From Marinitoga lauensis (GTDB taxonomy: Bacteria; Thermotogota; Thermotogae; Petrotogales; Petrotogaceae): 64,000 nucleotides of DNA. The position numbers were made by a program, and so were the translations under genes. The notes below the pieces were generated by a model. The model ran no database searches, was not told the DNA's origin, and was given only the letters and a program-made list of their open reading frames with translations. Location: the NCBI RefSeq assembly GCF_004135675.1, contig NZ_QHLX01000001.1:310001-374000 (forward strand), written 5' to 3'. The stretch's first letter is position 1. Every line of letters begins with the position of its first letter. This document shows, piece after piece, positions 5,580-58,880 of the stretch.

Positions 5580-6494
5580 ATGAAGTATTTAAATATGGAA
5601 GGAATAACTATAGAAAATGATTATATTAAATTAGTGGTTTTACCGAATTTAGGGGCAAAAATTGCTTCGATATATTATAAGCCTCAGAATTTTGAAGTAT
5701 TGTTTCAGCCTACATTAAAAAAATATAACTTACCAAAATATGGAGATTCTTTTGCTCAATATGATACTTCTGGTTCTGATGAAATGTTTCCAAATATTGA
5801 TAAAGGAATATATCCTTTTGAAGAGTATTATGGAGAAATTTTACCAGATCATGGAGAACTTTGGAGTATACCGTGGAACTGTAAAATAATAGGTAATAAC
5901 ATAATTGAATCCATTGTAGATAGTCCTAAATTTAATTATACTTTCAAAAGAATTATTGAATTAAAAAATAATAAGATTATATTGACTTATTCAGTGAAAA
6001 ATAATGGAATAAAAAAATTTAAAGGTTTTTGGACATTTCATGGATTAGTTGCTATTGATAAAAATAGCAAAATAATTTTAAACGGAATAAATAGAGTATT
6101 AAACGTTAAAAAGAATAGCCATTATTTAGGTAATAGCGAAAATGAATGTTCTTATCCTGTATATAATAATTATCAATTAAATAAATTTTTACCTCCAGAA
6201 GTAAAAAATACTGAAAAATTTTATTTATTAGACAAAATAGACTATGCAGGAATTACCTTAAATAATAATAATTTACTATATTTAGTGAATTTTAAAGAAT
6301 TACCTTATTTAGGTATATGGAAAAATGAAGGTGGTTTTAAAAACGAATATAATGCAGCAATTGAACCTACAAATGGTTTTTATGATTCTTTAGAAATCAC
6401 AAAAAAACATAATAAATATCTTACTTTTGAATCAGGTGAAGAAAAATCATGGCTAATTTCTATTGAATTAAATGAAGAAAATTTTTTAGCTTAA
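5580..6494 (+). CDS. Aldose 1-epimerase-like protein
   Basis: Galactose mutarotase-like protein of 304 aa. The N terminus (IENDYIKLVVLPNLGAKIASIYY) and the DHGELW segment near residue 98 resemble the aldose-1-epimerase superfamily; the typical second His and the Glu in AIEPTNG are also present. It would interconvert anomers of galactose released by galA, fitting its place as last gene of the operon. Its last five codons run into the prophage attachment repeat, so the 3' end is conserved in attR as non-coding sequence. The gene is intact after integration. Confidence 0.8.
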   Translation: MKYLNMEGITIENDYIKLVVLPNLGAKIASIYYKPQNFEVLFQPTLKKYNLPKYGDSFAQYDTSGSDEMFPNIDKGIYPFEEYYGEILPDHGELWSIPWNCKIIGNNIIESIVDSPKFNYTFKRIIELKNNKIILTYSVKNNGIKKFKGFWTFHGLVAIDKNSKIILNGINRVLNVKKNSHYLGNSENECSYPVYNNYQLNKFLPPEVKNTEKFYLLDKIDYAGITLNNNNLLYLVNFKELPYLGIWKNEGGFKNEYNAAIEPTNGFYDSLEITKKHNKYLTFESGEEKSWLISIELNEENFLA

Positions 6495-6610
6495 CAATGG
6501 TCTAAAAGTATGAATATAAAACAAAATCCCCGTTAATTCGGGGATTTTCAAACCGGTCTATACCTTCGACATACAATCTCATGTTGCAGGGTATAAAATG
6601 GAGGCAACGG
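6478..6610. repeat. attL: left prophage attachment repeat
   Basis: 6478-6532 is identical to 58749-58803 (55 bp). The homology continues more weakly to 6610, where the last bases match the 3' tip of tRNA-Cys at 58869-58880; the offset between copies is constant within 1 bp. The right copy continues into the full tRNA, the left copy into prophage DNA. This is the duplication expected from site-specific integration next to tRNA-Cys. Confidence 0.9.
6523..6548 (+). terminator. Terminator of the galactose operon
   Basis: A 10-bp stem (6523-6532 with 6539-6548) with loop TTAATT and a T-run within the 3' arm. It is symmetric, so it can act on both strands. The left arm belongs to the 55-bp att identity; identity stops exactly at the loop. 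Confidence 0.85.
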
Positions 6611-6635
6611 ACAGACTCCAATATAACAATAAAAG

Positions 6636-7050
6636 AGTATTTTGCAGTTCGGCGTTTCATAAATCAAATATCACAAATCATGTAGTTTGCTAATGTAGTT
6701 ACTTATACCTTTAAGTTTAATTGCTATATAATTTCTTTTTGAGCGCTCCGACTGTTTAACCTCAATTCTATCAATAATTTGCGTTAAAAAATCTGCTATT
6801 TTTTCATGATCGTCGCTTTTTAAAATTTCAACTGATGCTTTTATCATATTTTCTACAACCTCTTCATTAATATTAATTACTTCTTCTTCGTGTTTCTTTA
6901 AACTATATTGCAAAAGTTTTATATCGTTACTTATATCTTTTATTCTATTCTTTATTTTTTCAGTATTCAAACCCTGAGTTTGACACTATTATTATCAACA
7001 AAATTCTAAAAAGTAGAATTATTCAAAAAAATAGCTATTGTTAACTTTTT
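6636..7050. repeat. ~415-bp target duplication of IS copy A, left copy
   Basis: Matches 8965-9378 throughout, differing by one A in an A-run (seven here, six there). It contains the 3' end of the serine recombinase (codons at 6671-6970, leftward) plus the first 77 bp of IS copy B. Its position flush against both ends of IS A shows it is a target-site duplication. The IS1634 family is known for unusually long, variable duplications. Confidence 0.88.
6671..6970 (-). pseudogene. Serine recombinase C-terminal fragment, outer copy
   Basis: Encodes the last ~98 residues of the recombinase (ends in ISNYISKLHDL and a stop). It is an identical duplicate of 9000-9299 created by IS A insertion. It has no own ribosome site and is separated from the recombinase body (11.2-12.57 kb) by both IS elements. 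Before the insertions the recombinase stop codon lay about 60 bp from attL, the usual position for a phage integrase. Confidence 0.88.
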
Positions 7051-7187
7051 CCTGAGTTTGACAGCGATTTCATGATTTTTGAAAAATCGAAACGGTAGAA
7101 TGCGGGTTTGCGACGATGAAAAGGGTGAAAATTGGGGTTGAAAAATTTTTGTAGTGACACAAATATTTTTAACAATAGCGTTATATT

Positions 7188-7241
7188 CTTGATTTCATAA
7201 TATTTTTGTGGTATAATAAGTAATGGTATTATGAAATCAAG
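7188..7241 (+). promoter_or_regulatory. IS A promoter inside a perfect 14-bp inverted repeat
   Basis: 7188-7201 is the exact complement of 7228-7241. The -10 TATAAT (7212-7217) lies between the arms, and the right arm abuts the ribosome site GAGGTGA. Own transcripts would start after the left arm and be free to translate; read-through transcripts from outside would fold the two arms and mask the ribosome site. This is the logic known for IS10 and IS50. Confidence 0.6.
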
Positions 7242-7252
7242 AGGTGATTTTT

Positions 7253-8858
7253 GTGTTTTTGAGAGTAGTTAAAAATAACAAAGGTGTTGAATATTTAAGA
7301 ATTGTTGAAAGTTATAGGGAAAATGGTAAGATAAAGCAAAGAACTGTTGCAAACTTAGGAAGGATTGACTCTTTTAGCGAAAATGAAGCGAAAAATATAG
7401 TAAATAAACTCATACAAATATTTGATTTAAAAAATTATATTGATACAGAAGATATAAAAAAGGCACCGGATAAAAAGAATTACGGAGCCAAAGTAATAGT
7501 AAATAAGATATTCGAAAGATATGAGATGAAAAGATATTTTGAAAGACTGGATAAAGAAATAAAATACAATGCAGAAGAGATGCTAAAAATAATGGTGATG
7601 AATAGAATAGTAGAACCGAAAAGTAAATTGGGAATATTTAATAATTTAGAGTATTTTGGATATAACAAAGTGGAAGTTAAAAAAGAAAAAGACCTGGAAG
7701 AAAAAGATGTAATGCTGCACTGGTTATACAGAACATTGGATATATTGGCAGATAATAAAGAGTCGATAGAAAAACATATGTATAATCAAAGGATAAGTTT
7801 GTTTAATACAACGGTAGATTTAGTATTTTACGATGTAACGACATTAGCGTTTGAAACACAACAAACAAATGAAATATTACAAATGGGATATTCAAAAGAT
7901 AAGAAATTTAATGAATCACAAATAGTATTAGGGATGTCAATAGATCAGGATAGAATGCCAGTTAGTTTTGATATATATGCAGGAAATACATTTGAAGGGC
8001 ATACATTTAAAGATTCAATAGAAAAAATGAAAAAAGAATATCAATTAGGAAAAGTAATAGTAGTAGCAGATAGAGGAATGATGAGTAAAAAAATATAGAA
8101 GTAGTAGAAAATTCTAATTATGAATTCATAGTAGGAAAATCAATAAAACAAATAAAAAAAGTAAATATATTTGAAGGAGAATTCATAGAACTAGCAAAAG
8201 GAATAAAATATAGAGAAGTAGAATATGAAAATAAAAGATTACTCATAATATATTCAGAAGAAAGAGCCAAAAAAGACAGAGCAGATAGACTACGATTAAT
8301 AGAAAAAGCGAAAAAATGTTAGAAGAAGGAAATATAGATTCAAAAAGTAAAAGAGGAGCGAAAAAATATTTAAAAGAACAGAATAAACAAAATTATATAC
8401 TGGACATAGAAAAAATAGAAAATGATGAAAAATACGATGGATACTATGGAATAATAACAAACACAAAACTATCTCCAAAAGAAATATTAGAACAATATCA
8501 TACATTATGGAAAGTAGAAGAAACATTTAGAACATTAAAAAATTATCTTGAAACAAGACCGGTATTTCATTGGACACCAAAAAGAATAAAAGGACATATT
8601 GTAATGAGTTTCATATCTTACATAATTCAAAGAACACTAGAATTAGAACTGGAAAAAAATAATGTTGAATACTCTCATGAAAAAATAAGAGAAGCTATTA
8701 AAAATATGGAATACATTGAATTTAAAACACAAAAGCAACATCTTGTAGCGAGAATGAATTTAAATAAATTAGGACAAAGAATATTAAATACATTAAATAT
8801 TCCTGTACCAAAAATAATTTCACCCTATACAGAATTCAAAGAAAAATATAAAATTTAG
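7253..8858 (+). pseudogene. IS1634-type transposase, copy A (two frameshifts)
   Basis: DDE transposase of the IS4 superfamily; the N terminus has the family pattern YLRIVESYRENGKIKQRT. Candidate catalytic residues: Asp in LVFYDVTTLAFET, Asp in VVADRGMMSKK, Glu in LWKVEETFRTLKN. GTG at 7253 is the likely start (GAGGTGA site). Frame is lost at the A7 run 8087-8093 and again at the A6 run 8311-8316. The second run has seven A in copy B, where the frame is open. About 535 aa if restored. Slippage on A-runs could give some active product, but two events make this unlikely. Confidence 0.85.
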
Positions 8859-8964
8859 GGGGTGTAATGACACTTTTGTATTTAATAAAAAATTAACAAT
8901 TGTTGTTTTTTAGAATAATTCTGCTTTTTAGAATTTTATTGAAAAAAATACTGTCAAACTCAGG

Positions 8965-9378
8965 AGTATTTTGCAGTTCGGCGTTTCATAAATCAAATAT
9001 CACAAATCATGTAGTTTGCTAATGTAGTTACTTATACCTTTAAGTTTAATTGCTATATAATTTCTTTTTGAGCGCTCCGACTGTTTAACCTCAATTCTAT
9101 CAATAATTTGCGTTAAAAAATCTGCTATTTTTTCATGATCGTCGCTTTTTAAAATTTCAACTGATGCTTTTATCATATTTTCTACAACCTCTTCATTAAT
9201 ATTAATTACTTCTTCTTCGTGTTTCTTTAAACTATATTGCAAAAGTTTTATATCGTTACTTATATCTTTTATTCTATTCTTTATTTTTTCAGTATTCAAA
9301 CCCTGAGTTTGACACTATTATTATCAACAAAATTCTAAAAAGTAGAATTATTCAAAAAATAGCTATTGTTAACTTTTT
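8965..9378. repeat. ~415-bp target duplication of IS copy A, right copy
   Basis: Partner of 6636-7050. It includes the recombinase C-terminal codons (9000-9301, leftward) and the left end of IS copy B from 9302. This copy is the original one in continuity with IS B. Confidence 0.88.
9199..9301. repeat. 103-bp target duplication of IS copy B, left copy
   Basis: Identical to 11231-11333, which flanks the other end of IS B. Both are recombinase coding sequence (the coiled-coil region). Joining the recombinase at this duplication restores one open frame of about 512 codons, confirming insertion into the gene. Confidence 0.88.
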
Positions 9379-9432
9379 ATAAAAAGAGAAATTAGCCACA
9401 CACATCCTCCTTTTTGGCTTTTCATGCGTGTT

Positions 9433-11036
9433 TTAGGAGATTATTTTTTTAAATTCATCTAATTCCATCATTTTTTTCGGTTTTTCTATTTTTAATGTTT
9501 TTAATATGGCTTTTTGAAAATCGTTTAAATTGGCTCTTAATGCAAATAATTTGTCTTTTAATCTTATTTCAGAGTATTCCATTTTTTTTATAGCTTCTCT
9601 TATTTTTTCATGAGAGTATTCAATATTATTTTTTTCCAGTTCTAATTCTAATGTTCTTTGAATTATGTAAGATATGAAACTCATTACAATATGTCCTTTT
9701 ATTCTTTTCGGTGTCCAATGAAATACCGGTCTTGTTTCAAGATAATTTTTTAATGTTCTGAATGTTTCTTCTACTTTCCATAATGTATGATATTGTTCTA
9801 ATATTTCTTTTGGAGATAGTTTTGTGTTTGTTATTATTCCATAGTATCCATCGTATTTTTCATCATTTTCTATTTTTTCTATGTCCAATATATAATTTTG
9901 TTTGTTCTGTTCTTTTAAATATTTTTTCGCTCCTCTTTTACTTTTTGAATCTATATTTCCTTCTTCTAACATTTTTTTCGCTTTTTCTATTAATCGTAGT
10001 CTATCTGCTCTGTCTTTTTTGGCTCTTTCTTCTGAATATATTATGAGTAATCTTTTATTTTCATATTCTACTTCTCTATATTTTATTCCTTTTGCTATTT
10101 CTATGAATTCTCCTTCAAATATATTTACTTTTTTTAACTGTTTTATTGATTTTCCTACTATGAATTCATAATTAGAATTTTCTACTACTTCTATATTTTT
10201 TTACTCATCATTCCTCTATCTGCTACTACTATTACTTTTCCTAATTGATATTCTTTTTTCATTTTTTCTATTGAATCTTTAAATGTATGCCCTTCAAATG
10301 TATTTCCTGCATATATATCAAAACTAACTGGCATTCTATCCTGATCTATTGACATCCCTAATACTACTTGCGACTCATTAAATTTCTTATCCTTTGAATA
10401 TCCCATTTGTAATATTTCATTTGTTTGTTGTGTTTCAAACGCTAATGTTGTTACATCGTAAAATACTAAATCTACCGTTGTATTAAACAAACTTATCCTT
10501 TGATTATACATATGTTTTTCTATCGACTCTTTATTATCTGCTAATATATCCAATGTTCTGTATAACCAGTGCAACATTACATCTTTTTCTTCCAGGTCTT
10601 TTTCTTTTTTAACTTCCACTTTGTTATATCCAAAATACTCTAAATTATTAAATATTCCCAATTTACTCTTCGGTTCTACTATTCTATTCATCACCATTAT
10701 TTTTAACATTTCTTCTGCATTGTATTTTATTTCTTTATCCAGTCTTTCAAAATATCTTTTCATCTCATATCTTTCAAATATCTTATTTACTATTACTTTG
10801 GCTCCGTAATTTCTTCTTGCTATTTCTTCCATTAAATCATCTTCTATTTTTTCATATTCATCTATTTCAAATATTTTAAAAAGACTATCTACAAGTTTTG
10901 TTATATCTTTTTTACTATACTTATCTATATTTCCAAAATTTATTACTGTATGCTGTTTCACTTTTCCATTTTCTCTTTTGCTTTCCATTATCCTTAAATA
11001 TCTTTTTCCTTTCACTTTTGATATTTTAGGATACAT
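9433..11036 (-). pseudogene. IS1634-type transposase, copy B (one frameshift)
   Basis: Same family and catalytic motifs as copy A. Start ATG at 11036 (MYPKISKVKGKRYLRIME) behind AAAGGAG. The first ~80 and last ~50 residues differ from copy A, but the middle is almost identical. One break only, at the A7 run (10196-10202 on this strand): the first frame ends MMSKKI and the second continues NIEVVENSNYEF. A -1 slip on seven A would make a full protein, so this copy could be active by transcriptional slippage. Confidence 0.83.
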
Positions 11037-11047
11037 TTTAAAACATC

Positions 11048-11088
11048 TCCTTTCAGTGGTTGTCATATATATTATACCACCAAAAGGA
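11048..11088 (-). promoter_or_regulatory. IS B promoter inside an inverted repeat
   Basis: 11048-11060 pairs with 11076-11088 (11 of 13 positions). The leftward -10 TATAAT (11071-11076) is between the arms and the promoter-distal arm contains the AAAGGA of the ribosome site. The sequence is unrelated to IS A's inverted repeat but the arrangement is the same, which supports a shared anti-read-through function. Confidence 0.55.
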
Positions 11089-11199
11089 CTAATATATTAC
11101 TAATTATAGTTAATTCTCTGTAACAAAAGTTAGCCACACAATTTTTCGACTTCCTGAAAAATACACGCCTCAAACCCGCATTCTACCGTTCCATTTCCC

Positions 11200-12570
11200 T
11201 TAAAATCGCCAAATTGCTGTCAAAGGCAGGATATTAATTACTTCTTCTTCGTGTTTCTTTAAACTATATTGCAAAAGTTTTATATCGTTACTTATATCTT
11301 TTATTCTATTCTTTATTTTTTCAGTATTCAAACCAGCTTCTATTGCATCCATAAAACTTTCTTCTAATCTTTCTTTTCTCTTTTTCAACTTCGAAATTTC
11401 GTTTTTTATTTCATTAATTTTGGTTTTATTATTTTTATACTTAATAGAATTTATAGAATTGATTTTTTTTATTAAATCAGAAATTTCAATTTTTTCAAAT
11501 ACATCATTTAATAAAAAATCAATTACGAAACTTTCCACTTTTTCACGAGAAATAGAAATAAAATGATCATGTTTTTCATGATTTGTTATTTTCTTCTTCC
11601 AACTTGAACATACATATCTTGGGTACCTTCCACCAAATGCTATCATCTTTTCTCCACAAACTCCACAATATAATAAATTTTTTAATAAATATTTATGTTT
11701 TTTCTTTTTAACCCTGTTCCTCTTTTTCATTTTTTCTTGTACTTTATCCCATAATTCTTTTGATACTATTGCAGGAATAGCATTTTCTACTATTACAGCA
11801 TCATCTCTTTTTATATGAGAAGTTCTATGATTACCCCTTGCCCAAACATATGTACCTTTATATTTTGGATTGTGTAAAATATCATAGATTGTGCTATAAG
11901 ACCATTTTCCACCTTTTCTAGTTACAAAACCATGATTATTTAAATATTCTTCTATTTTTAAAGTTGAATAATCTTTTTCCGCTAATTCAAACATTAGTTT
12001 AACTACTTCAGCTTCTTTTTCATTTATAACATATTGTTTTCTAGGTATTTTCTTTACTCTTTCACCAAAGGAAATTTCTTCATATGTTTCTTCCACATCA
12101 TAGCCATATGGTGGAATACCTCCAAGAAAATAAGCTTTCTCTGCAGTAATTCTCACTTTAGTATTTATTTCATTTTTAAGATTCTTCAAATACCAATCAG
12201 CCACACTGGCCATAATATTAAAAATAAGATCACCAGATGCACCTGTTAAATCTTCTGATACAGAAAGCAAATCTACACCATATTGATTCAATTCTGCTTT
12301 ATACCAAGCAGCATCTTTTATATTTCTTGCAAATCTATCAATCTTATGGATAATAACAGCATCAAATTTTTTAGATTTAGCATCTCTAATCATCCTTTGA
12401 AATTCCGGTCTATCATCCGATTTTGCTGATCTTGCTCTATCAATATATTTTTCTACAATTTCATATCCGTTTTTTTCAGCATATTCTATTATAGCCCTTA
12501 ATTGTGCTTCAATAGAATCATCCGTTTGATTTTCACTTGAAAACCTTGCATATGCAGCAGCCTTTTTCAT
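11200..12570 (-). pseudogene. Large serine recombinase (phage integrase), truncated by IS B
   Basis: Integrase of the prophage. The N-terminal resolvase domain (about 1-150) has the catalytic Ser11 in YARFSS and conserved IHKIDRFARN; the recombinase domain (about 160-270) and a zinc ribbon (CGVCG near 315) follow, then a coiled coil. The native protein would be about 512 aa. IS B cuts it after residue 447, adding nine foreign residues (LPLTAIWRF). The lost C-terminal part carries the end of the coiled-coil region, which in serine integrases governs synapsis. Excision is therefore probably impaired. Confidence 0.9.
11231..11333. repeat. 103-bp target duplication of IS copy B, right copy
   Basis: Partner of 9199-9301; still in frame with the recombinase body. 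Confidence 0.88.
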
Positions 12571-16463: not shown

Positions 16464-16535
16464 ATGGCTCATGAACTGGCTCAGTATCTGGTTCAACATC
16501 TGGTTCACTATCAGGCTCAATTTTTGAACCAGTTA
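16464..16535. repeat. Iteron-like array 1, 12-bp period
   Basis: Consecutive 12-mers from 16464: ATGGCTCATGAA, CTGGCTCAGTAT, CTGGTTCAACAT, CTGGTTCACTAT, CAGGCTCAATTT, then an inverted half-unit (GAACCAG). In one frame it reads as a 4-residue linker repeat (SGSV SGST SGSL SGSI). Confidence 0.8.
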
Positions 16536-16547
16536 TATTTTTTATCT

Positions 16548-16595
16548 AACCGGTATCGCGGTTGCTATCGCGGGTGGTGTTGCGGGTGGTGTCGC
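16548..16595. repeat. Iteron-like array 2, 12-bp period
   Basis: Four consecutive 12-mers: AACCGGTATCGC, GGTTGCTATCGC, GGGTGGTGTTGC, GGGTGGTGTCGC. It is far more GC-rich than its surroundings and unlike arrays 1 and 3. Confidence 0.75.
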
Positions 16596-16619
16596 AATAT
16601 CAGACAGCGGAATGTAATA

Positions 16620-16691
16620 TTTTGCTACTCTCCGTTTACTGTCCCACCTACTCTCCCGTTTACTGTTTCATTTAGTGTTTGTCTGTGAAAC
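16620..16691. repeat. Iteron-like array 3, 12-bp period
   Basis: Units from 16632: CCGTTTACTGTC, CCACCTACTCTC, CCGTTTACTGTT, TCATTTAGTGTT, with a degenerate unit on each side. Reads in one frame as PFTV PPTL PFTV SFSV. Confidence 0.75.
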
Positions 16692-16740
16692 GCTAGAACG
16701 GAATACGTAGCTAAATTGTTTTGATTTTCCCTTTGCCATG

Positions 16741-16788
16741 CTAATTGGTGTGTTAGGTGCTGTGCCAGTTGGTGTGTCAATTATTGAC
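16741..16788. repeat. Iteron-like array 4, 12-bp period
   Basis: Units CTAATTGGTGTG, TTAGGTGCTGTG, CCAGTTGGTGTG and a degenerate fourth. A purine-rich A/G stretch (16827-16865) and then AT-only DNA follow, the order seen after iterons in lambda-type origins. Confidence 0.72.
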
Positions 16789-16860
16789 ACGGCATTTAAG
16801 TTTTTGCCTCGTCTTTTTGATATGGTTAAGAAAGAAAAGAAAAGAACCAAAAGAAAAGAA

Positions 16861-16920
16861 AGAATATATATAATAATATAATATAATATATAAATATATA
16901 ATATATATTTTTTTCTTTTT
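16861..16920. other. AT-only stretch, candidate DNA-unwinding element
   Basis: About 48 bases of pure A/T alternation (16865-16912) run into a pyrimidine-rich T/C tract to 16950. It lies between the iteron-like arrays. Easily melted DNA beside iterons is the usual make-up of a replication origin. No gene here; open frames over it are low-complexity. Confidence 0.55.
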
Positions 16921-17045
16921 TCTTTTTGCTTCTTTTTCTTTTTTCTTTTTTAAGTATACTGTGTAAAGTTTTTTCGATATTTTGCACTTTGGAATTCTTA
17001 CGAAAAAAAACAAACGCTTCCAATAAAAAAACATTAAAAATCCGG

Positions 17046-17065
17046 CTAAAATCAGGCGATTTTAG
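17046..17065. other. Small hairpin in the origin-like region
   Basis: CTAAAATC (17046-17053) pairs with GATTTTAG (17058-17065) around a 4-nt loop. 16951-17160 otherwise shows no gene and no repeat I can support. Confidence 0.4.
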
Positions 17066-17163
17066 GGCAGCTAAATGTATTTTTTGTATGATTTTATATC
17101 AAGGAAATTTTCAACGGTCTATAGGCTCAAATTTTAAATTTGAAAGTTTTTAATTTTTTTAAA

Positions 17164-17262
17164 AAAGTGTCTCATATAGATACGGTTTCTGAGACGGTTA
17201 GCAAAGTGTCTCAATATGAGACGGTAACTGAGACACTATCCGAGACACTTTCTGAGACGGTT
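17164..17262. repeat. Iteron-like array 5: copy of the initiator-gene array
   Basis: 99 bp matching 26763-26861 at all but two positions. Direct 12-mers at 17217, 17229, 17241 and 17253 (TGAGACGGTAAC, TGAGACACTATC, CGAGACACTTTC, TGAGACGGTTAG), another at 17190, and inverted GTGTCTCA at 17167 and 17206. Here the copy is non-coding. Confidence 0.92.
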
Positions 17263-17279
17263 AGCTAAGTATCCAATTA

Positions 17280-17348
17280 CCTGTTCATAATCCTGTTCGT
17301 GTTCCTGCTCATTTACCTGCTCATAATCCTGTTCATACATGAACACGT
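17280..17348. repeat. Iteron-like array 6, 12-bp period
   Basis: Five consecutive 12-mers: CCTGTTCATAAT, CCTGTTCGTGTT, CCTGCTCATTTA, CCTGCTCATAAT, CCTGTTCATACA, then an inverted TGAACA. It reads in one frame as PVHN PVRV PAHL PAHN. It ends about 10 bp from the repressor gene stop. Confidence 0.85.
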
Positions 17349-17356
17349 TACCTAGT

Positions 17357-17968
17357 TTATTCCCATACAACTTTACCAATAACTTTCCCTACGATAATTA
17401 ATTCTTCCCATTTTTCTTTAGGAATTACAATTGGTTCATATTTTGGATTTAAACTTATCAAATTAATGCTATTTTCGAATTGATAGAATTTTTTTATAAT
17501 TCCATCATCTCCATTTATTATAAATACTCCAATATCTCCATTTTCCAAGACATTTTGTTTCCTTACCAGAGCATAATCTCCATTATTATATGCAGGTTCC
17601 ATTGAATCTCCAACCACAATTAAACCAAAATCAACGTCTTTGTTTTGAGGTACAGGTAAATAATTTATTATGTTTTCATCAGCAAATATGCCATTTCCAG
17701 CGCTTACACTACCAACAATTGGAATAAATTTTGCAGGTATTACATTAGGCGGTAAATTGTCTTTACTTTTTCCTTCTTTTATTCCTAAAAGGTAATCGGT
17801 AGTTACATTAAAAAATTCAGCTATTACTTTAAGCATCTCAGGAGAAGGAGTAGCTCTACCGGTTTCATATGCAGAAATACTTTTTCTAGTTATATTTAAT
17901 TTTTTTGCTAATTCTTCCTGTGTTAAACCTAATTCCTGCCTTAACCTTTTTAATCTATCTTTAAGCAT
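17357..17968 (-). CDS. CI/LexA-like phage repressor with S24 domain
   Basis: Principal lysogeny repressor candidate (203 aa). HTH at about 14-35 (LTQEELAKKLNITRKSISAY). The C-terminal S24 domain has the cleavage pair A90-G91 in VGSVSAGNG, nucleophile Ser122 in GDSMEP and general-base Lys159, so RecA-stimulated self-cleavage and SOS induction are expected. Divergent from a Cro-like gene across a shared operator region. Confidence 0.9.
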   Translation of the reverse strand: MLKDRLKRLRQELGLTQEELAKKLNITRKSISAYETGRATPSPEMLKVIAEFFNVTTDYLLGIKEGKSKDNLPPNVIPAKFIPIVGSVSAGNGIFADENIINYLPVPQNKDVDFGLIVVGDSMEPAYNNGDYALVRKQNVLENGDIGVFIINGDDGIIKKFYQFENSINLISLNPKYEPIVIPKEKWEELIIVGKVIGKVVWE

Positions 17969-24520: not shown

Positions 24521-25585
24521 ATGAATAAATTAGCACCTTATTCCATGAGTAGATTAACCGAATACGAAAGATGTCCAAAGAGGTTTCGATTTAAGTATAT
24601 AGATAAATTACCGGAATTAGTTGGAGATGAAGGATTTAAAGGAATAAAAATACATGAAGCTATAGCTAATGCGTTAAAAGGAAAAGATTATAAAAACATT
24701 TTAGCTGAAATTGCTTTTGATGATATTAGAGATGCAGAATATATGGTTAAAAGTGCAGTGAAACACAGTAAAAATCTTGGAAAAATATTAGGAATTGAAA
24801 CAAAATTTGGAATAACTCAAAAAGGTGAATTAACAGATTTCTTTTCTAAAGATGTTTGGCTAAGAGGGGTTGCAGATTTAATTACTACTCAAGATGGAAA
24901 AACTTTAGAAGTTTGGGATTGGAAAACTGGTCATAGTACTCCTACTAAATTTCAAGTTTTCTTGTATGCATGGGCAATAAGTATAGCTTTACAAAGACCA
25001 GTAACTAGAGTTGGATATATAATGCTTAATTCTAATGATATTTTAATTTTTGATGTAACTTCTGAAGATTTATAAATTACTGTTAATAAACTATATAAAT
25101 TAGTAAATTCCATAGAAACAGATACCAAATTCACTCCTAAACCTGGCAGACATTGTGCGTTTTGTTCATATGTAAGTATGTGTCCATTAGTAAATCAGAT
25201 TGAATCAAAAGATATTCCAACTATTTTAAATGATGAAGATGCTGTGAAAATTTATAAAGAAGTAATTGTATTAAAAGAGTTGGTAAAGAATAGAGAGAAA
25301 GCTTTAAAAGAGTATGTAAAATCAAAGCCTGAAGGTGCTGTGAAAATTGATGAAAATAAAGTATATAAACTTACTTATTCAGAAACTATAACTAAAAAAC
25401 GCGGAATAAATAAAGATGAATTAAAGAAATTTATATGGGAATTTGCAGAAAAAAATAATTTGGATCCTTTAATTTATTTTGATTTAGACAATAAAAAACT
25501 AGAACCATTAATAATTGAAGGTGTCTTGAAAGATTATTTCACTATATCAAAAAGAAAGAGTTTTGTATTAGAGGAGGTGGAGTAA
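24521..25585 (+). pseudogene. PD-(D/E)XK exonuclease with Fe-S cluster motif, split by an in-frame stop
   Basis: RecB/Cas4-type nuclease. N-terminal Cys in TEYERCPKRF, then the active-site stretch GVADLI...LEVWDWKTG (residues about 114-136), QVFLYAWAI helix, and the C-terminal cluster HCAFCSYVSMCPL. A TAA at 25073-25075 interrupts the frame; the same frame is open on both sides (355 codons in all), so this is a substitution rather than a slip. The stop separates the catalytic core from three of the four cluster Cys. In phages such nucleases pair with annealing proteins in recombination. Confidence 0.78.
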
Positions 25586-26431: not shown

Positions 26432-26462
26432 AAAATGTCGTAATTTTAAAGAGGTGAAATAC

Positions 26463-27299
26463 ATGCAAATTGCCACAGTTTTTAGCCGGTTTTGGCGAGA
26501 TCGTCTGGATTGGGAACTTAGCGATTCTGAGATTGCTTTATTCTTTGCTATTTTGGCCGAAATTAACAGGACAAGGGGAGAGAATAACAATCTCTTGGAA
26601 TCCAGGATCTCAATCGGGACTCCCAAGCTGGAATTGTTAGCTGGCATATCTAGAGCAGAAGTATATAGAGCAAGAAATAGACTAAAGCAGTATGGATTAA
26701 TTGATTTTATTAGTGGGAAAGGGAAAAAGAATTATGCAACTTATTCTTTGGGTAAAGTATTTAAAGTGTCTCATATAGATACAGTTTCTGAGACGGTTAG
26801 CAAAGTGTCCCAATATGAGACGGTAACTGAGACACTATCCGAGACACTTTCTGAGACGGTTTCTGCAACACTTCCTGAGACACGTTATAAGAATATAGAA
26901 TATAGAGAAGAGAATATAGAAAAAAATAAAAAGAGTATAGTCCCTCAACAAGTTGAAGGACCACCGCACACTCCGTATAAAAAAATTATTGAATTATATC
27001 ATACATATTGTCCTTCACTTCCTAGAGTAAAGGTTTTAAATGAAACTAGGAAAAAATATATTAAAGCACGATGGAAAGAATACCCAGATTTGAAATTTTG
27101 GGAACAGTATTTCCAAAGTGTTGAAGAATCAGACTTTTTAACAGGAAGAGCAGATTATGGTAATAGAAACCCTTTTATTGCTGATCTCGAATGGTTAATG
27201 AGACCAAATAATTTTGCAAAAGTTATTGAGGGGAAATATAACAACAGGGGAATTGTAGGAACTATTGATGAGGAAATAAAAAGCCTTCTGAGGAGATGA
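26463..27299 (+). CDS. DnaD-like replication initiator with internal repeat array
   Basis: About 278 aa from ATG 26463 (GAGGTGAAAT). N-terminal winged-helix domain (1-95: FWRDRLDWELSDSEIALFFA, ISRAEVYRARNRLKQYGLID). Residues ~100-145 are a 4-residue repeat (SETV, TETL, SETL) because the DNA is a 12-bp-period array. The C-terminal part (about 160-270) resembles the DnaD/DnaB-like segment of phage initiators with a FWEQYFQSVE core. As in lambda O, the origin probably lies inside the gene. Confidence 0.75.
   Translation: MQIATVFSRFWRDRLDWELSDSEIALFFAILAEINRTRGENNNLLESRISIGTPKLELLAGISRAEVYRARNRLKQYGLIDFISGKGKKNYATYSLGKVFKVSHIDTVSETVSKVSQYETVTETLSETLSETVSATLPETRYKNIEYREENIEKNKKSIVPQQVEGPPHTPYKKIIELYHTYCPSLPRVKVLNETRKKYIKARWKEYPDLKFWEQYFQSVEESDFLTGRADYGNRNPFIADLEWLMRPNNFAKVIEGKYNNRGIVGTIDEEIKSLLRR
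26763..26898. repeat. Iteron array inside the initiator gene
   Basis: 12-mers TGAGACGGTTAG, TGAGACGGTAAC, TGAGACACTATC, CGAGACACTTTC, TGAGACGGTTTC, TGCAACACTTCC, TGAGACACGTTA, with two inverted GTGTCTCA/GTGTCCCA units. 99 bp are copied at 17164-17262. A purine-rich A/T stretch follows (26885-26940), as downstream of iterons in lambda-type origins. Confidence 0.85.
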
Positions 27300-27303
27300 T
27301 TAT

Positions 27304-28272
27304 ATGGCTGTTACTTATGCGACTTTTATTGATGAAATAATAGCAAAAGTAAAAAAGCTTGAAGAATACATACAGCAATTTCCAAGGCATGAAGCGGAAA
27401 AATACTTACAACAAGAGGTTGAAGATAATAGAATTTTCGGATATGTAAATAATCTGGTTAATAAAAAACTAAAAAGACTAACCTACATGGATATGCTGCA
27501 AGTAAAGGATTATTTATTAAAAGAGAAAAAATGCAAAAGTTGTCATGTTATATCGTTAAATTGTAAAGATTACGCGAAATATTATCTAGACACTTATAAC
27601 GGACAATTAATAACAAGAAAGTTAATTTGCAATAAGTACATGCATAGATACTATACCGCAGAATTGGAATATATCTTAAAACACAGTAAAGATGAAAATA
27701 AATTAGTGAGAAGTCTAACTAAAAAGTTTAATCTGAAAGTTGATACATCTACAACTGAAAAATTTCTTGAGAGCTTTTTACATAATGTGAATTTATATGA
27801 AAAAGAGGAAGTTTTGGACTATTTGAAGGGTGAAATCATGGCTTATTCATATAATAGAGTGACTCTATTAGGACGTTTGACAAAAGATCCAGAAATAAGA
27901 TTAGCTGCAAATGGAAATGGATATGCGGTATCTACTATGGCTGTTGATAGTGGAAAAAAGAATGAAAATGGTGAATATGAAGCAGATTTTTTTAGAATAA
28001 AAGTTTTTGGCCAAAAAGCTAATATATTTGAAAAATATCTTAAAAAAGGTGATTTAGTTTTAATAGAAGGTAAGTTAAGTTCGAATTCATGGCAGGATGA
28101 AAAAAACGAATGGCATAACATAACTGAGGTAATTGTTTTAAATTTTGTGTTTATGCCTAACAAGAAGAATGAAACATCTAGCAATGGAGATGTATTAGAG
28201 GATCCGGAAAATTTAGATATTGCAAATGATGATTTTCCTCAATTTTTCCCTCTTGACGAAACAACAAAATAG
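27304..28272 (+). CDS. ssb: Zinc-containing helicase-loader-like domain fused to SSB
   Basis: 322 aa in one frame. Residues 1-175 are helical with a CKSC...C cluster near 79-90. Residues 179-322 are a single-stranded DNA-binding OB fold: MAYSYNRVTLLGRLTKDPEI, EADFFRIKVFG, GDLVLIEGKLSS, and an acidic tail. An internal ATG at 27838 has its own AAGGGTG site, so SSB alone (144 aa) can also be made. The N-terminal half may be a helicase-loading domain by position after the initiator; that is inference. The canonical DDxPF SSB tip is replaced by DDFPQFFPLD before the end. Confidence 0.8.
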   Translation: MAVTYATFIDEIIAKVKKLEEYIQQFPRHEAEKYLQQEVEDNRIFGYVNNLVNKKLKRLTYMDMLQVKDYLLKEKKCKSCHVISLNCKDYAKYYLDTYNGQLITRKLICNKYMHRYYTAELEYILKHSKDENKLVRSLTKKFNLKVDTSTTEKFLESFLHNVNLYEKEEVLDYLKGEIMAYSYNRVTLLGRLTKDPEIRLAANGNGYAVSTMAVDSGKKNENGEYEADFFRIKVFGQKANIFEKYLKKGDLVLIEGKLSSNSWQDEKNEWHNITEVIVLNFVFMPNKKNETSSNGDVLEDPENLDIANDDFPQFFPLDETTK

Positions 28273-28670: not shown

Positions 28671-28836
28671 AAATGAATTAGAAGATGATATCTTGAGACT
28701 AAATTATAAGTATGCTGAAGAGTTAGAAAGGAACGAAAAATTAAAGAAAAGATTAAAAGAATTAGAAACTAAGAACGCGAAACTCTTTACAGAAAATATG
28801 AGATTAAGAAGGGATAAATTTGAAATTAGAAATTGA
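28588..28836 (+). CDS. Membrane-anchored coiled-coil protein (82 aa)
   Basis: MLLAFFLTFSVGVFTGFFIL is one hydrophobic segment; residues 28-80 form a Glu/Lys/Leu coiled coil. ATG 28588 behind GGGGGTG. Overlaps rusA. Unknown role. Confidence 0.55.
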   Translation: MLLAFFLTFSVGVFTGFFILALLTISARNELEDDILRLNYKYAEELERNEKLKKRLKELETKNAKLFTENMRLRRDKFEIRN

Positions 28837-29185
28837 AATAGAAGGAATTCCGCCGAGTGTTAATCATGCATATAGAAAAAGAGGCAGGGGACACGGACTG
28901 TATAAAACGCCACAAGCAAAAGAGTTTCAAAAACGTGTTTATTATATAGCTAGAGAAGCTATGCGTAAAGCAAGATGGACTATGATACCAAAAGATAGAA
29001 ATTTTTATTTAATGGAAATGCATTTTCACTTTAAAAATTGGAGACATCCAGATCCTAATAATCTTCTTAAAATTCTCATAGACAGCTTTCAAGGAGTTGT
29101 ATTTGAAGATGATAAAAACATAGATACTAAAACAAAATCATTTGTTGATGGGAAAGATAAAACGATTGTTATTTTTTACAAATAG
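28820..29185 (+). CDS. rusA: Holliday junction resolvase, RusA family
   Basis: Resolves four-way junctions during phage recombination and packaging. 121 aa, family-typical. The PPSVNHAYRK start and the core HPDPNNLLKILIDSFQG followed by FEDDKNI supply the acidic metal ligands. TTG start with AGAAGGG; overlaps the previous gene by 17 bp. Confidence 0.88.
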   Translation: MKLEIEIEGIPPSVNHAYRKRGRGHGLYKTPQAKEFQKRVYYIAREAMRKARWTMIPKDRNFYLMEMHFHFKNWRHPDPNNLLKILIDSFQGVVFEDDKNIDTKTKSFVDGKDKTIVIFYK

Positions 29186-32358: not shown

Positions 32359-32418
32359 TGCCGGAAAAGTGCCGGAAACTGCCGGATTAATGCCGGATAG
32401 TGCCGGAAAGATGCCGGA
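32359..32418. repeat. Six helically phased TGCCGGA repeats (candidate packaging site)
   Basis: TGCCGGA starts at 32359, 32370, 32380, 32391, 32401 and 32412: spacing alternates 11 and 10, so all sites lie on one face of the helix. It is 270 bp before terS. A small-terminase ring binding such an array would be typical of a pac or cos region. Confidence 0.7.
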
Positions 32419-32421
32419 ATT

Positions 32422-32475
32422 ATCCTACCTCTTGCTGACTCGTACGAGCGGTGTTAATGAGGTAGGATTTTTTTA
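32422..32475 (+). terminator. Long-stem terminator upstream of terminase
   Basis: A perfect 10-bp stem ATCCTACCTC (32422-32431) with GAGGTAGGAT (32459-32468), 27-nt loop, then seven T. Confidence 0.75.
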
Positions 32476-32619
32476 TACTTATTATAATAATTTTGATTAG
32501 TATAATACTGGTTAGTATAAATTATGATAACGTACTACAGATAAGGATACAGTACGTGTGGAGGTTGTGAGGGTGGGTATAGATAAACTCCATATTAGAG
32601 AGGAGGTCGTCTATCTAAC

Positions 32620-42820: not shown

Positions 42821-45800
42821 ATGGCTAATACCGCAACTTTGAGTATATTAATTCAAGCTAAAGATTATGCTTCTCAAGCTTTAAAAACAATTACAAAATC
42901 TGTAAATACATTAGAAACTGCGGTTGATAAAACAAACAAAAAATTTAATCAATTCAAACAAAATTTTGATGATATAGCAAGATATGTAAAATATGCATTA
43001 GGTGCAATAACAGCAACAGGAACAGCTATTGTAGCTTTTTCAAAAGATACAGAAAAAGCGATGGCAAATGCTTCAACGATGTTTGGAGTAACAGCAAAAG
43101 AATTTGAAAAACAACTTGGAAATAAAATTACTACAATAGCTCAAAAGTATGGATTTTCTTTAAAATCAATGTGGGAAGCAACATATGCATTAGGTAGTGC
43201 AGGAATAGAATTAAAAGATGTTCCTGCAGTTTTAGAACAGGTTGCAAAAGCAAGTGTAGCGGGGGCAACTGATGTAGAAACAGCATTCACAGGTGCAATA
43301 AAGCAAATTAAAGGTTTCGGTTTGAATATGCAAGATTTAACAAAGGTTTATGCAGTACAATTTCAGGCTGTAAAATATGGTTTGTTGAATTACGAGCAAT
43401 TAGCTCAATATATCCCTGAAATTTCCGCATCTGCAAGAAGTTTAGGAGAAAACTGGATTTCTGCAACAGCAACATTTGCAACCTTGACAAAATATATGCC
43501 TGATGCTTCTCAAGCAGCTAATGCACTTCAAAACGCATATGATGAATTAACTCAAAAATCAGAGCAATTAACAAAAGCAGGGATTAAATTATATGAAAAT
43601 GGTAAATTTATAGGATTTGTAAATGTATTAAAACAGTTAAGGAATCAGCTGAAAGGCAAAACAAATGAAGAGGTAGCTAACTTTATTAATCAATTACAAT
43701 TATCAGATACAGCAAGGCAAGCAATTGTAAATTTGATAAATAATTTTGATGATCTTGAAAATATAACGAACTTAGTTACAGATGATGTTTCAGCTTTAAA
43801 TGAAATGTTTATTAAACAAACTTCTACCTTAGAATTCCAAATTAGAAAATTGCTTGTGGTTTTGGATAATTTGAAACAAACAATATATAATGCATTTAAA
43901 GGTGTCTTAGGTGTATGGATCGAAAAAGCTATAAGGTGGTTTCAAGGATTAGCAAAATGGATAGATGAGAACAAAGATAAATTTGTAGCACTAATAACAG
44001 CAGTAACAAAATTATTAATAGCAATAGTAATCTTTAATATGATGCTTAATGTTTTAAGTAAGCTTGGTAGTGTAGTAAGTGCATTAGTAAATCCATTTAC
44101 ATGGCTATTTGGAATATTAGTTGCATGGTTTGCATCTTTGGATAAAGCAAAAAGAATAGAAGTTATTCAAGCGATTATAAATGGAATAGGTAATGCAATA
44201 AAATGGTTAGGTAAACAATTTAAATTAATTCAAGAGCAAGGATTTTTCAAATGGCTTATAGGATTATTAGGTGGAGCTTTAAAAGCAGTATTAAATTTTG
44301 CTATAAATGCAACTGTAACGAGTTTTGAATGGTTAGCTGGAAAAACAGTTGAAGGATTTATGGCTCTTATTGAATTTTTTGCGTGGTTAGCAAGAACAAC
44401 AATTTCAGGATTTGCTGCTATAATCGAATTTTTTAATCCTATATTCAAGAAAGTAATAGAAGGATTTACAGCTGTAATTCAATTCTTTAATTGGATAGCT
44501 AAAAAAATGATAAATGGATTTACTGCAACAATTGAATTCTTTGTTTGGATAGCTGATAAAGTGATTGATGGCTTTTTGGTAGTAGCTAATTTTGTAGAAT
44601 ATGCATTTGAGAAAAGTTTTGAAGCAGTAGTTTATTTTTTAGAAAATTTAGACAAAATATCAGCATGGATATTAAATGGAGCAATAACAGTAACAATTGA
44701 TTTTTTAGAAAATTTGAGCAAAATCTCAAGTTGGATCCTTAATAATCTAATTGAAATTGCAGCTAAAATTACATTTACATATATCGCATTATACGATTGG
44801 ATCGTATCAGGAGTTAGAGACTTAGTTGTAAATGTAGCTTTTAATATTGCAGAAGGAGCAAAGAAAATTTGGAATTTCTTCTCTGACTTGATAGTTAATG
44901 CATGGAAAAAGACAATACAATTCACAATTGATTTGATAAAAGGGAAAAATGAATTTGAAGAAACAAAACCAGTTAATCCTGAAGCACCAAAAGAAATTGG
45001 TAGTAATCCTTATATAATAACAGGAGAAACAACTACAAGCTTAACAGGAAGTGCTATTTCTACAACTACATTAGCAACAGACAAAGCTTTGAGTTTTGGA
45101 CAATATGCATTGAGAATGGGAGCTATATTTGGTGGTATAGGAGCTGGTGTTTTAACCAGTAGTGCATTATCAGCAACATTCATGGAACAAGCTTTAAAAT
45201 ATGCTTTATTAGGAGCAGGGTTTGCAGAAGGTGGATACACAGGAAACGGCGGAAAATATGATGTTGCAGGAATAGTGCATAAAGGGGAATATGTAATTCC
45301 TGCTTGGTTAGTAGAAAAATATCCGCAATTGATAAGTATTTTAGAACAAAAAAGAATAAAAGGTTACGCAGATGGTGGAAGTGTAGCAACAACAATATCA
45401 AGTTTTTTAGGTGGAGATGTATTGGGAGAAATTGGAACTAATGTAAAAACTGTTGCAGATATAATACCAGAAATAATTAATTATATTTCTAATTACATAC
45501 CAGAAGTTAAAGAAAATCAAGATTTAATAACAGAAACTTTAAATAAAATGCTTGGAATCCAAGAAGGAAATGATAAAACACAAAAATCAATGTTGCAACA
45601 ATTAACAGAAGATCTCAAATTAGCTCAAACATTATACCCAGAAACCAAAGCTTATTATGACTTCGAAAAAGGTCAAGCTGGATTTTTAACTCAGATATTT
45701 AAAGGCGGTTTCGATGTTCTAACCGGAAGCATTGGAAATGTTGGCGGTATAATAGGTGAAGGTATAGCAAAAACAAGTTTTGGACAAGCAGTAATTAATG

Positions 45801-58212: not shown

Positions 58213-58760
58213 ATAGTGTTGAATTAAAAGTTGGAGATGTTCTACTATTAAAAAAAGAAGATGCTCCTGGAATATACACCTTTCTTAAACAATTCCTTGG
58301 AAAAAATATAGCTGATATAATTGCAAAAATTGAAGGACATGAATATATACACTCTGAATTATATGTGGGTAATGGCTATGTTCTTGCTGCATGGTTTAAT
58401 GGCGTGCATCTGATAAAATACCCTCTTAGGATTTTAGGCAATTTTGATATATACAGACATGAAAAAATGGATAATGAAAAAAGAAGTGTAATAAAAAGAA
58501 ATGTAGCAAAATATTTCAATATGAGATACGATTTCGCTTCACTCATTCTGAATGGGCTTCCAGAAATTCTTAGTTTGGGGTTTGAACCTTTAGAAAGATA
58601 CTTAGAAAAACAACTCCCATATTCAGATCCTAATAAAATGATTTGTTCTGAACTCGTGGCGAGGATGTATAAAGATGCAGGAATAATAATAGAACCTGAT
58701 CCAGAATTCGTTACTCCTGATGATATTGCACAAGATGGAGAAATGAAAAAAATTTTTTAG
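58209..58760 (+). CDS. Permuted papain-like (NlpC/P60-type, YiiX-like) hydrolase
   Basis: 183 aa. Starts LKVGDVLLLKKEDAPGIYTF; the order His first (EYIHSELYVGNG) then Cys (MICSELVARMYKDAG) is that of circularly permuted NlpC/P60 proteins. Could hydrolyse peptide or lipid bonds in the envelope; endolysin or lysogenic-conversion enzyme. Its last codons lie in the 55-bp att repeat, read in a different frame from the epimerase at attL. Confidence 0.75.
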   Translation: MNSVELKVGDVLLLKKEDAPGIYTFLKQFLGKNIADIIAKIEGHEYIHSELYVGNGYVLAAWFNGVHLIKYPLRILGNFDIYRHEKMDNEKRSVIKRNVAKYFNMRYDFASLILNGLPEILSLGFEPLERYLEKQLPYSDPNKMICSELVARMYKDAGIIIEPDPEFVTPDDIAQDGEMKKIF

Positions 58761-58880
58761 CTTAACAATGGTCTAAAAGTATGAATATAAAACAAAATCC
58801 CCGAATTAACGGGGATTTGCAGACCGATATTCATTTCGAATATGGCAACACATTATAGTGCTCAGTAATGGAGGCAACGG
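58749..58880. repeat. attR: right prophage attachment repeat
   Basis: 58749-58803 equals 6478-6532. Beyond it the homology to attL is weaker until the tRNA-Cys 3' tip (58869-58880). Includes a symmetric terminator (58794-58818) whose loop, AATTAA, is the reverse complement of the attL loop TTAATT. Confidence 0.9.
58794..58818 (+). terminator. Terminator at the prophage right end
   Basis: AAATCCCCG pairs with CGGGGATTT, loop AATTAA. Ends the lysis operon; also works leftward for the tRNA. Confidence 0.8.

Follow-up and report, generated by a model that had tools for sequence, protein, structure and literature searches.

In this study, we analysed a 64,000-nucleotide window of Marinitoga lauensis DNA (contig NZ_QHLX01000001.1, positions 310,001 to 374,000) that carries a prophage. 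At 16464-17348 of the window, directly downstream of a CI-like repressor gene, six arrays of short repeats with a 12-bp period lie side by side; we call this region the library. A previous reading made from the sequence alone (the sequence-only reading) had described six such arrays in non-coding DNA, and both statements were borne out. When any period from 9 to 30 was scored against 1000 dinucleotide shuffles per half-region, the strongest period in both halves was 12. The matching fractions of 16464-16800 and 17161-17348 were 0.455 and 0.528, respectively, and the shuffle maxima were 0.363 and 0.392, respectively, with period 12 ahead of all 1000 shuffles. The four to six units that had been assigned to every array were too many for arrays 2-4, which are short and have about three to four recognisable units. 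Most of the library arrays rank among the top places of 12-bp periodicity in the window, and an equally strong array was found elsewhere only in the replication initiator gene at 26.8 kb, whose iterons are about 8.5-9.7 kb from the library. A check of the open reading frames over 16464-17348 gave no credible gene, and the orthologous stretches of the related Marinitoga camini viruses MCV1 (KP836355) and MCV2 (KP836356) are unannotated. A protein-coding role of the repeats was rejected because there is no credible gene and the frames are open only piecewise. None of the arrays can be explained as chance, a gene or a simple repeat.

The arrays were compared with replication initiator genes of this prophage and its relatives. 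Array 5 (17164-17262) was 98% identical over 99 bp to the repeats of the prophage's own initiator gene (26763-26861), which agrees with the 99-bp copy that the sequence-only reading had noticed, and this sequence has only two places in the whole genome, the library and the initiator gene, with no third copy. Array 1 matched the initiator genes of MCV2 (86% over 79 bp) and of the viral contig L287 (84% over 85 bp), whose initiator is an MCV2/MPV1 chimera, and it matched the library copies of MCV1 and MCV2 with 82-94% identity. Array 2 matched the MCV1 initiator gene (78% over 51 bp) and occupies the position that MCV1's copy of its own iterons has in the MCV1 library. Array 4 matched the initiator gene of MPV1 (79% over 53 bp), a phage carried by the same-genus genome G008; the MCV1 and MCV2 library copies of this MPV1 type gave 92-94%, and 49 stretches matching the array 4 pattern were listed. 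We are nearly certain, judging from these alignments, that arrays 1, 2, 4 and 5 are initiator iterons. The earlier proposal, in which every array is taken as the origin core of a separate initiator allele and the arrays are collected beside the immunity region, therefore holds strongly for these four, and the possibility that none of arrays 1-4 and 6 would be found in an initiator gene did not materialise. The proposal does not extend fully to the other two. Array 3 had only a partial match to the repeats of the L293 initiator (73% over 40 bp) and a loose resemblance to the TGAGAC class, and array 6 had no match elsewhere among 103 Thermotogota genomes. The array 6 pattern matches examined in viral contigs were unrelated repeats, and the matches in the plasmid collection (82% over 50 bp, E 6e-3) were to enterobacterial plasmids without a link to an initiator and were treated as chance. 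The satellite plasmid pMP1 of M. piezophila was rejected as a source of the arrays, since the 13,386-bp second contig of G008, which we take to be pMP1, contains no 12-bp arrays.

The arrays share their anatomy with the in-gene iterons, namely an inverted half-site followed by 12-bp direct repeats. Inverted half-sites that match their own direct repeats were GGTTCAAAAATTGAACC in type 1, GTGTCAATAATTGACAC in the window's type 4 and TGTTCATGTATGAACA in array 6. The in-gene repeats of MPV1 are spaced partly by 11 bp, which indicates that 12 bp is common and not universal. The inverted half-site of array 4 in the window departs from that of MPV1 in both arms, yet the arms still pair, which fits an altered specificity rather than decay. 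The arrays can be read as initiator linkers, as had been suggested, but the strand had to be corrected, since arrays 1-4 and 6 are read on the minus strand and only array 5 on the plus strand. When five initiators were compared with the three libraries of the window, MCV1 and MCV2 by tblastn, the convincing matches covered the linker and, ahead of it, no more than about 10-15 residues. No convincing copy of an N-terminal or C-terminal domain was found, and the hits outside the linker and its 5' flank were weak. Judging by these matches, only the repeat segment and short 5' flanks have been copied, never the DNA-binding or C-terminal domains.

The lambda-type origin layout that had been seen at array 4 was not upheld. 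In lambda and in the prophage's own initiator gene the AT-rich stretch lies 3' of the iterons, whereas in the library the AT tract (16828-16951) is found 5' of the arrays when these are read in the sense of the gene. GC (guanine-cytosine) skew was discarded, as its sign change near the repressor tracks gene direction and is uninformative.

Tandem repeats lie inside the initiator gene, between the DNA-binding and C-terminal domains, in the window, MCV1, MCV2, MPV1, the G006 prophage, L287 and L293. The AlphaFold model of the window initiator has a winged-helix-like N-domain (approximately residues 1-105), a disordered linker (106-170) in which the repeat-encoded part sits, and a helical C-domain. 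The N-domain has the order H-H-E-H-H-E-E, and the predicted local distance difference test score (pLDDT) is high in most blocks. Its fold matches in the PDB were winged-helix proteins, including 4PT7 ('Structure of initiator') and 4PQL, none of them at E <= 0.001. In 7/7 initiators, the iteron type tracks the N-terminal winged-helix-like domain and not the C-terminal domain. For example, the N-domains of the window and G006 initiators are 90% identical and their C-domains are unrelated, while the MCV1 and MCV2 initiators have C-domains that are 97.5% identical and N-domains that are 28% identical. The chimeric initiator of L287 (1111-1833), in which an MCV2-type N-domain with type-1 iterons is joined to an MPV1-type C-domain, is in our alignments direct evidence of module swapping, and L293 joins a type-5 N-domain and TGAGAC iterons to a fourth C-domain. 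The type-5 N-domain with TGAGAC iterons occurs with three different C-domains (window, G006 and L293) and the type-1 N-domain with two (MCV2 and L287), while in the window, MCV1 and MCV2 a single C-domain is combined with three N-domains and as many iteron types. Because the iteron type follows the N-domain across seven mosaic initiators, we believe that the in-gene repeats are probably the binding sites of the winged-helix-like domain. The stretch at 26884..26940 is likely the unwinding element of the in-gene origin. The coordinates are collected in Table 1.

Table 1. Coordinates of the library, the initiator gene and neighbouring genes in the window.
Feature	Coordinates	Strand	Description
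Array 1	16464..16545	-	Type 1 (MCV2-type) initiator iterons; minus-strand reading GSKIEPDSEPDVEPDTEPVHEP
Array 2	16547..16612	-	Type 2 (MCV1-type) initiator iterons; minus-strand reading SDIATPPATPPAIATAIP
Array 3	16632..16690	-	Without exact allele; distantly related to the TGAGAC (type 5) class; minus-strand reading TLNETVNGRVGGTVNGE
Array 4	16738..16795	-	Type 4 (MPV1-type) initiator iterons; minus-strand reading AVSIIDTPTGTAPNTPIS
Purine-rich / AT-only / pyrimidine-rich tract	16828..16951	.	Candidate unwinding element; kind and position kept in MCV1 and MCV2
Array 5	17161..17265	+	Near-identical copy of own initiator iterons; orientation opposite to arrays 1-4
Array 6	17268..17345	-	Iteron-like, without matching initiator type; minus-strand reading MYEQDYEQVNEQEHEQDYEQV
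CI-like repressor (helix-turn-helix and peptidase S24)	17357..17968	-	Pfam PF01381, PF00717; PHROG 4
PD-(D/E)XK exonuclease	24521..25075	+	PF12705, PHROG 69; context of recombination-dependent replication
Replication initiator gene	26454..27299	+	PHROG 19658, 345, 10469 (phage replication initiation proteins)
In-gene 12-bp iterons, TGAGAC class	26763..26883	+	Sequence
AT/purine-rich stretch 3' of in-gene iterons	26884..26940	+	Sequence
SSB domain protein	27304..28272	+	PF00436, PHROG 44
RusA-like Holliday junction resolvase	28820..29185	+	PHROG 34

An orthologous locus is present in MCV1 and MCV2; its arrays overlap in type with those of the window, and it has the purine/AT/pyrimidine tract as well. 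A prophage in the same-genus genome G009 matches MCV1 through the array region. The non-coding gap of MCV1 (43571-44436) contains, in order, the array-1 type, a reverse-complement copy of its own initiator iterons, the array-4 type and the tract. In the MCV2 gap, the array-1 type comes first, followed by a window-type array, the MCV1 type, the array-4 type and finally the tract. The initiator linkers of MCV2 and MPV1 are of the array-1 type and the array-4 type, respectively. Types are shared among the three libraries, and content and order differ. Every library holds its own type together with at least two types that are live in other phages, and in the window, MCV1 and MCV2 there is a second, intergenic copy of the phage's own initiator repeats with an AT-rich element. 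The CI gene is the neighbour of the library in the window and in MCV1, and a gene for a LexA-like repressor flanks it in MCV1 and MCV2. The type-1 copy in the MCV1 library was 94% identical to the MCV2 gene over 101 bp, whereas MCV2's own library copy was only 87% identical to that gene. Because some library copies are nearly identical to the live genes of other phages, it appears that either the copying was recent or a former own copy was left behind by an initiator swap. Between the type-1 copies of the MCV1 and MCV2 libraries, 2/40 core columns and 8/28 spacer columns differ, a bias that was possibly inherited from the genes. MPV1 and the G006 prophage, which both carry another type of CI, had no library and no second iteron copy in the stretches examined. 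Other initiator-like genes with 12-bp repeats, from Thermotogota and from other phages, had no strong second copy in the loci examined; therefore, libraries are not general.

We speculated that the locus is a non-coding, multi-allelic initiator-binding site that most likely acts as a decoy or false origin against rival phages, a reading held tentatively and with a little less than an even chance. Each array module, an inverted half-site with direct repeats mostly 12 bp apart, would match the winged-helix domain of a different initiator type, and these modules would be stored beside the immunity repressor gene, where initiators could bind the arrays that match them. If a phage with a matching initiator infects the lysogen, or is induced alongside it, the rival initiator may be bound by the arrays and paired (handcuffed) away from the rival's in-gene origin, and the replication of the rival would be delayed or blocked. 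In addition, the phage might use the own-type array as a second (late) site when it replicates. The many foreign specificities, the place beside the repressor and the match of types 1, 2, 4 and 5 to live initiator genes of other phages support a decoy. Four points weigh against it. A decoy in single copy, whose sites are roughly as numerous as those of a single incoming origin, is perhaps too weak if it is amplified neither by handcuffing nor by local replication. The own type is present in 3/3 libraries, which is not required of a pure anti-rival decoy, although this is a weak point, as chance is possible with three to six types in each. A decoy has no need of a conserved AT tract beside the arrays. 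Finally, the three libraries known all come from one bacterial genus. That the locus is a natural and heritable library of rivals' origin sites in the immunity region, updated from circulating initiator genes and conferring initiator-specific immunity against several phage types, is possible but rather doubtful.

Plasmids have inc and incA clusters, in which iterons outside the origin titrate or handcuff the initiator and control the copy number of the element itself. The library iterons likewise lie outside the origin, but they are mostly of foreign specificities. In the lambda replication inhibition phenotype, plasmid-borne lambda iterons outside the origin interfere with the lambda O-type initiator and silence rep-lambda phages, and the AT-rich part is not required (PMC3349717). 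That phenotype depends on an artificial multicopy plasmid and on OOP transcription and has one specificity, whereas the library is natural, in single copy and of many specificities. Similarly, Per (phage-encoded resistance) and the 302-bp element of phiSfi21 are non-coding, ori-like phage DNA that can block incoming phage DNA, and the phiSfi21 element confers phage resistance (PMC6356513). Unlike the library, Per is dependent on copy number and has a single specificity. A block of rivals by the library would resemble the effects of the lambda iterons and Per elements.

The locus could instead serve the phage's own replication, as a second (late) origin or as a fork barrier, with the initiator on its own array stalling the fork and aiding the switch from theta to concatemer replication, and with the other arrays as relics of earlier initiator alleles or as a site compatible with any initiator that is acquired; we consider this unlikely, though it deserves attention. 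The precedent is Bacillus phage SPP1, whose oriL lies within initiator gene 38 and whose other origin, oriR, is intergenic and 12-13 kb away; oriR has direct repeats and an AT-rich DNA unwinding element, is bound by the same initiator, has been proposed to stall forks and is thought to trigger the concatemer switch (PMC6316719, PMC3485210). The library resembles oriR in placing further initiator repeats and an AT-rich tract between genes, roughly 10 kb away from the origin inside the initiator gene, and here too the phages encode recombination enzymes: the window phage has RusA, exonuclease and SSB genes, and MCV1 and MCV2 carry RecT. An oriR-like site would also be in keeping with the own type found in every library, with the conserved tract and with the distance to the in-gene iterons. 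However, SPP1 oriR serves one initiator, whereas the library gathers three to six initiator types beside the immunity repressor, the keeping of which an oriR-like site leaves unexplained. Relative to the repeats, the tract lies on the other side from the AT-rich stretch of the in-gene origin, and related phages do without the site; because MPV1 and the G006 prophage lack a second iteron copy, a second site is not needed by this initiator family. The same reversed order speaks against a shared origin that fires with any of several initiators, by which the prophage could be replicated through the initiator of a co-infecting phage. Several array types do lie beside a long AT-only tract, as such an origin would have them, but we regard it as very improbable.

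Recombination could also have formed the locus without any function. RecT-type annealing between short, similar iterons may have dropped linker fragments into the gap, where they persisted as neutral scars. The phages encode RecT/YqaJ-type recombination, the initiator genes are clearly mosaic, and some copies include short non-iteron 5' flanks, all of which would suit such an origin. Yet four types in three phages lie at a single site next to the repressor, convincing fragments of N- or C-domains are absent, the 12-bp phasing and the inverted half-sites are preserved, and the type-1 differences fall mostly in the spacer, a bias that may nevertheless come from the genes. Neutral scars are thus improbable in our judgement, if not strongly so. 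We give hardly any credence to a donor library from which the initiator gene would switch its iterons by gene conversion: the own array is 98% identical to the gene, but the origin would stop working if its iterons were changed and the N-domain was not changed to match, and N-domains are not stored. Antisense control of the initiator mRNA by a leftward transcript was rejected, because the own array is in the plus orientation in the window and reversed in MCV1 and MCV2.

Second initiator-binding sites, such as SPP1 oriR, and artificial origin decoys, such as Per and the lambda inhibition phenotype, are already known. The library would be, on the matches reported here, a variant of such extra-origin initiator-binding sites, and what is new is that foreign specificities are gathered in it. 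The open literature searched, which did not cover the primary MCV1/MCV2 paper (Mercier et al. 2018), gave no account of a natural locus where the iterons of several initiators are collected. If the decoy reading is true, prophages possess a replication immunity that consists of DNA alone and is sequence-specific, and present searches for defence systems, being based on proteins, would miss it. Decoy or not, the library is a record of the initiator types met by the phage lineage, and the set formed by MCV1, MCV2, MPV1 and the window phage makes its function directly testable.

Several further observations were made in the window and in the collections searched. An 88-bp direct repeat (6470-6555 and 58741-58826, 92%) flanks the prophage; its copies are possibly the halves of the attachment site, in which case the prophage would extend over approximately 6.5-58.8 kb. 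A transposase-like gene pair occurs twice at 6635-11334, in inverted and interrupted copies (91.8% over 1.5 kb), and a 104-bp piece from the end of a serine recombinase gene is present in three copies (6870, 9199 and 11231). The left end of the prophage appears to have been rearranged by insertion-sequence activity. At 32359-32520 there are tandem repeats of other than 12 bp (TGCCGGAAAC units, ATACTGATTAGTATA), which could be a packaging or regulatory site, and the DNA near them is conserved in the MCV1 and G006 prophages. In the viral contigs L244 (12818-13473) and L247 (1-480), arrays of more than 600 bp with a 12-bp period lie in an open frame that reads QVNEQVRDQV, possibly an extreme iteron linker. 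Frames of initiator size from unrelated phages or prophages (L037, L057, L066, L275, L276 and L271) contain 12-bp arrays that code for four-residue repeats, and they perhaps represent a wider, little described class of in-gene origins.
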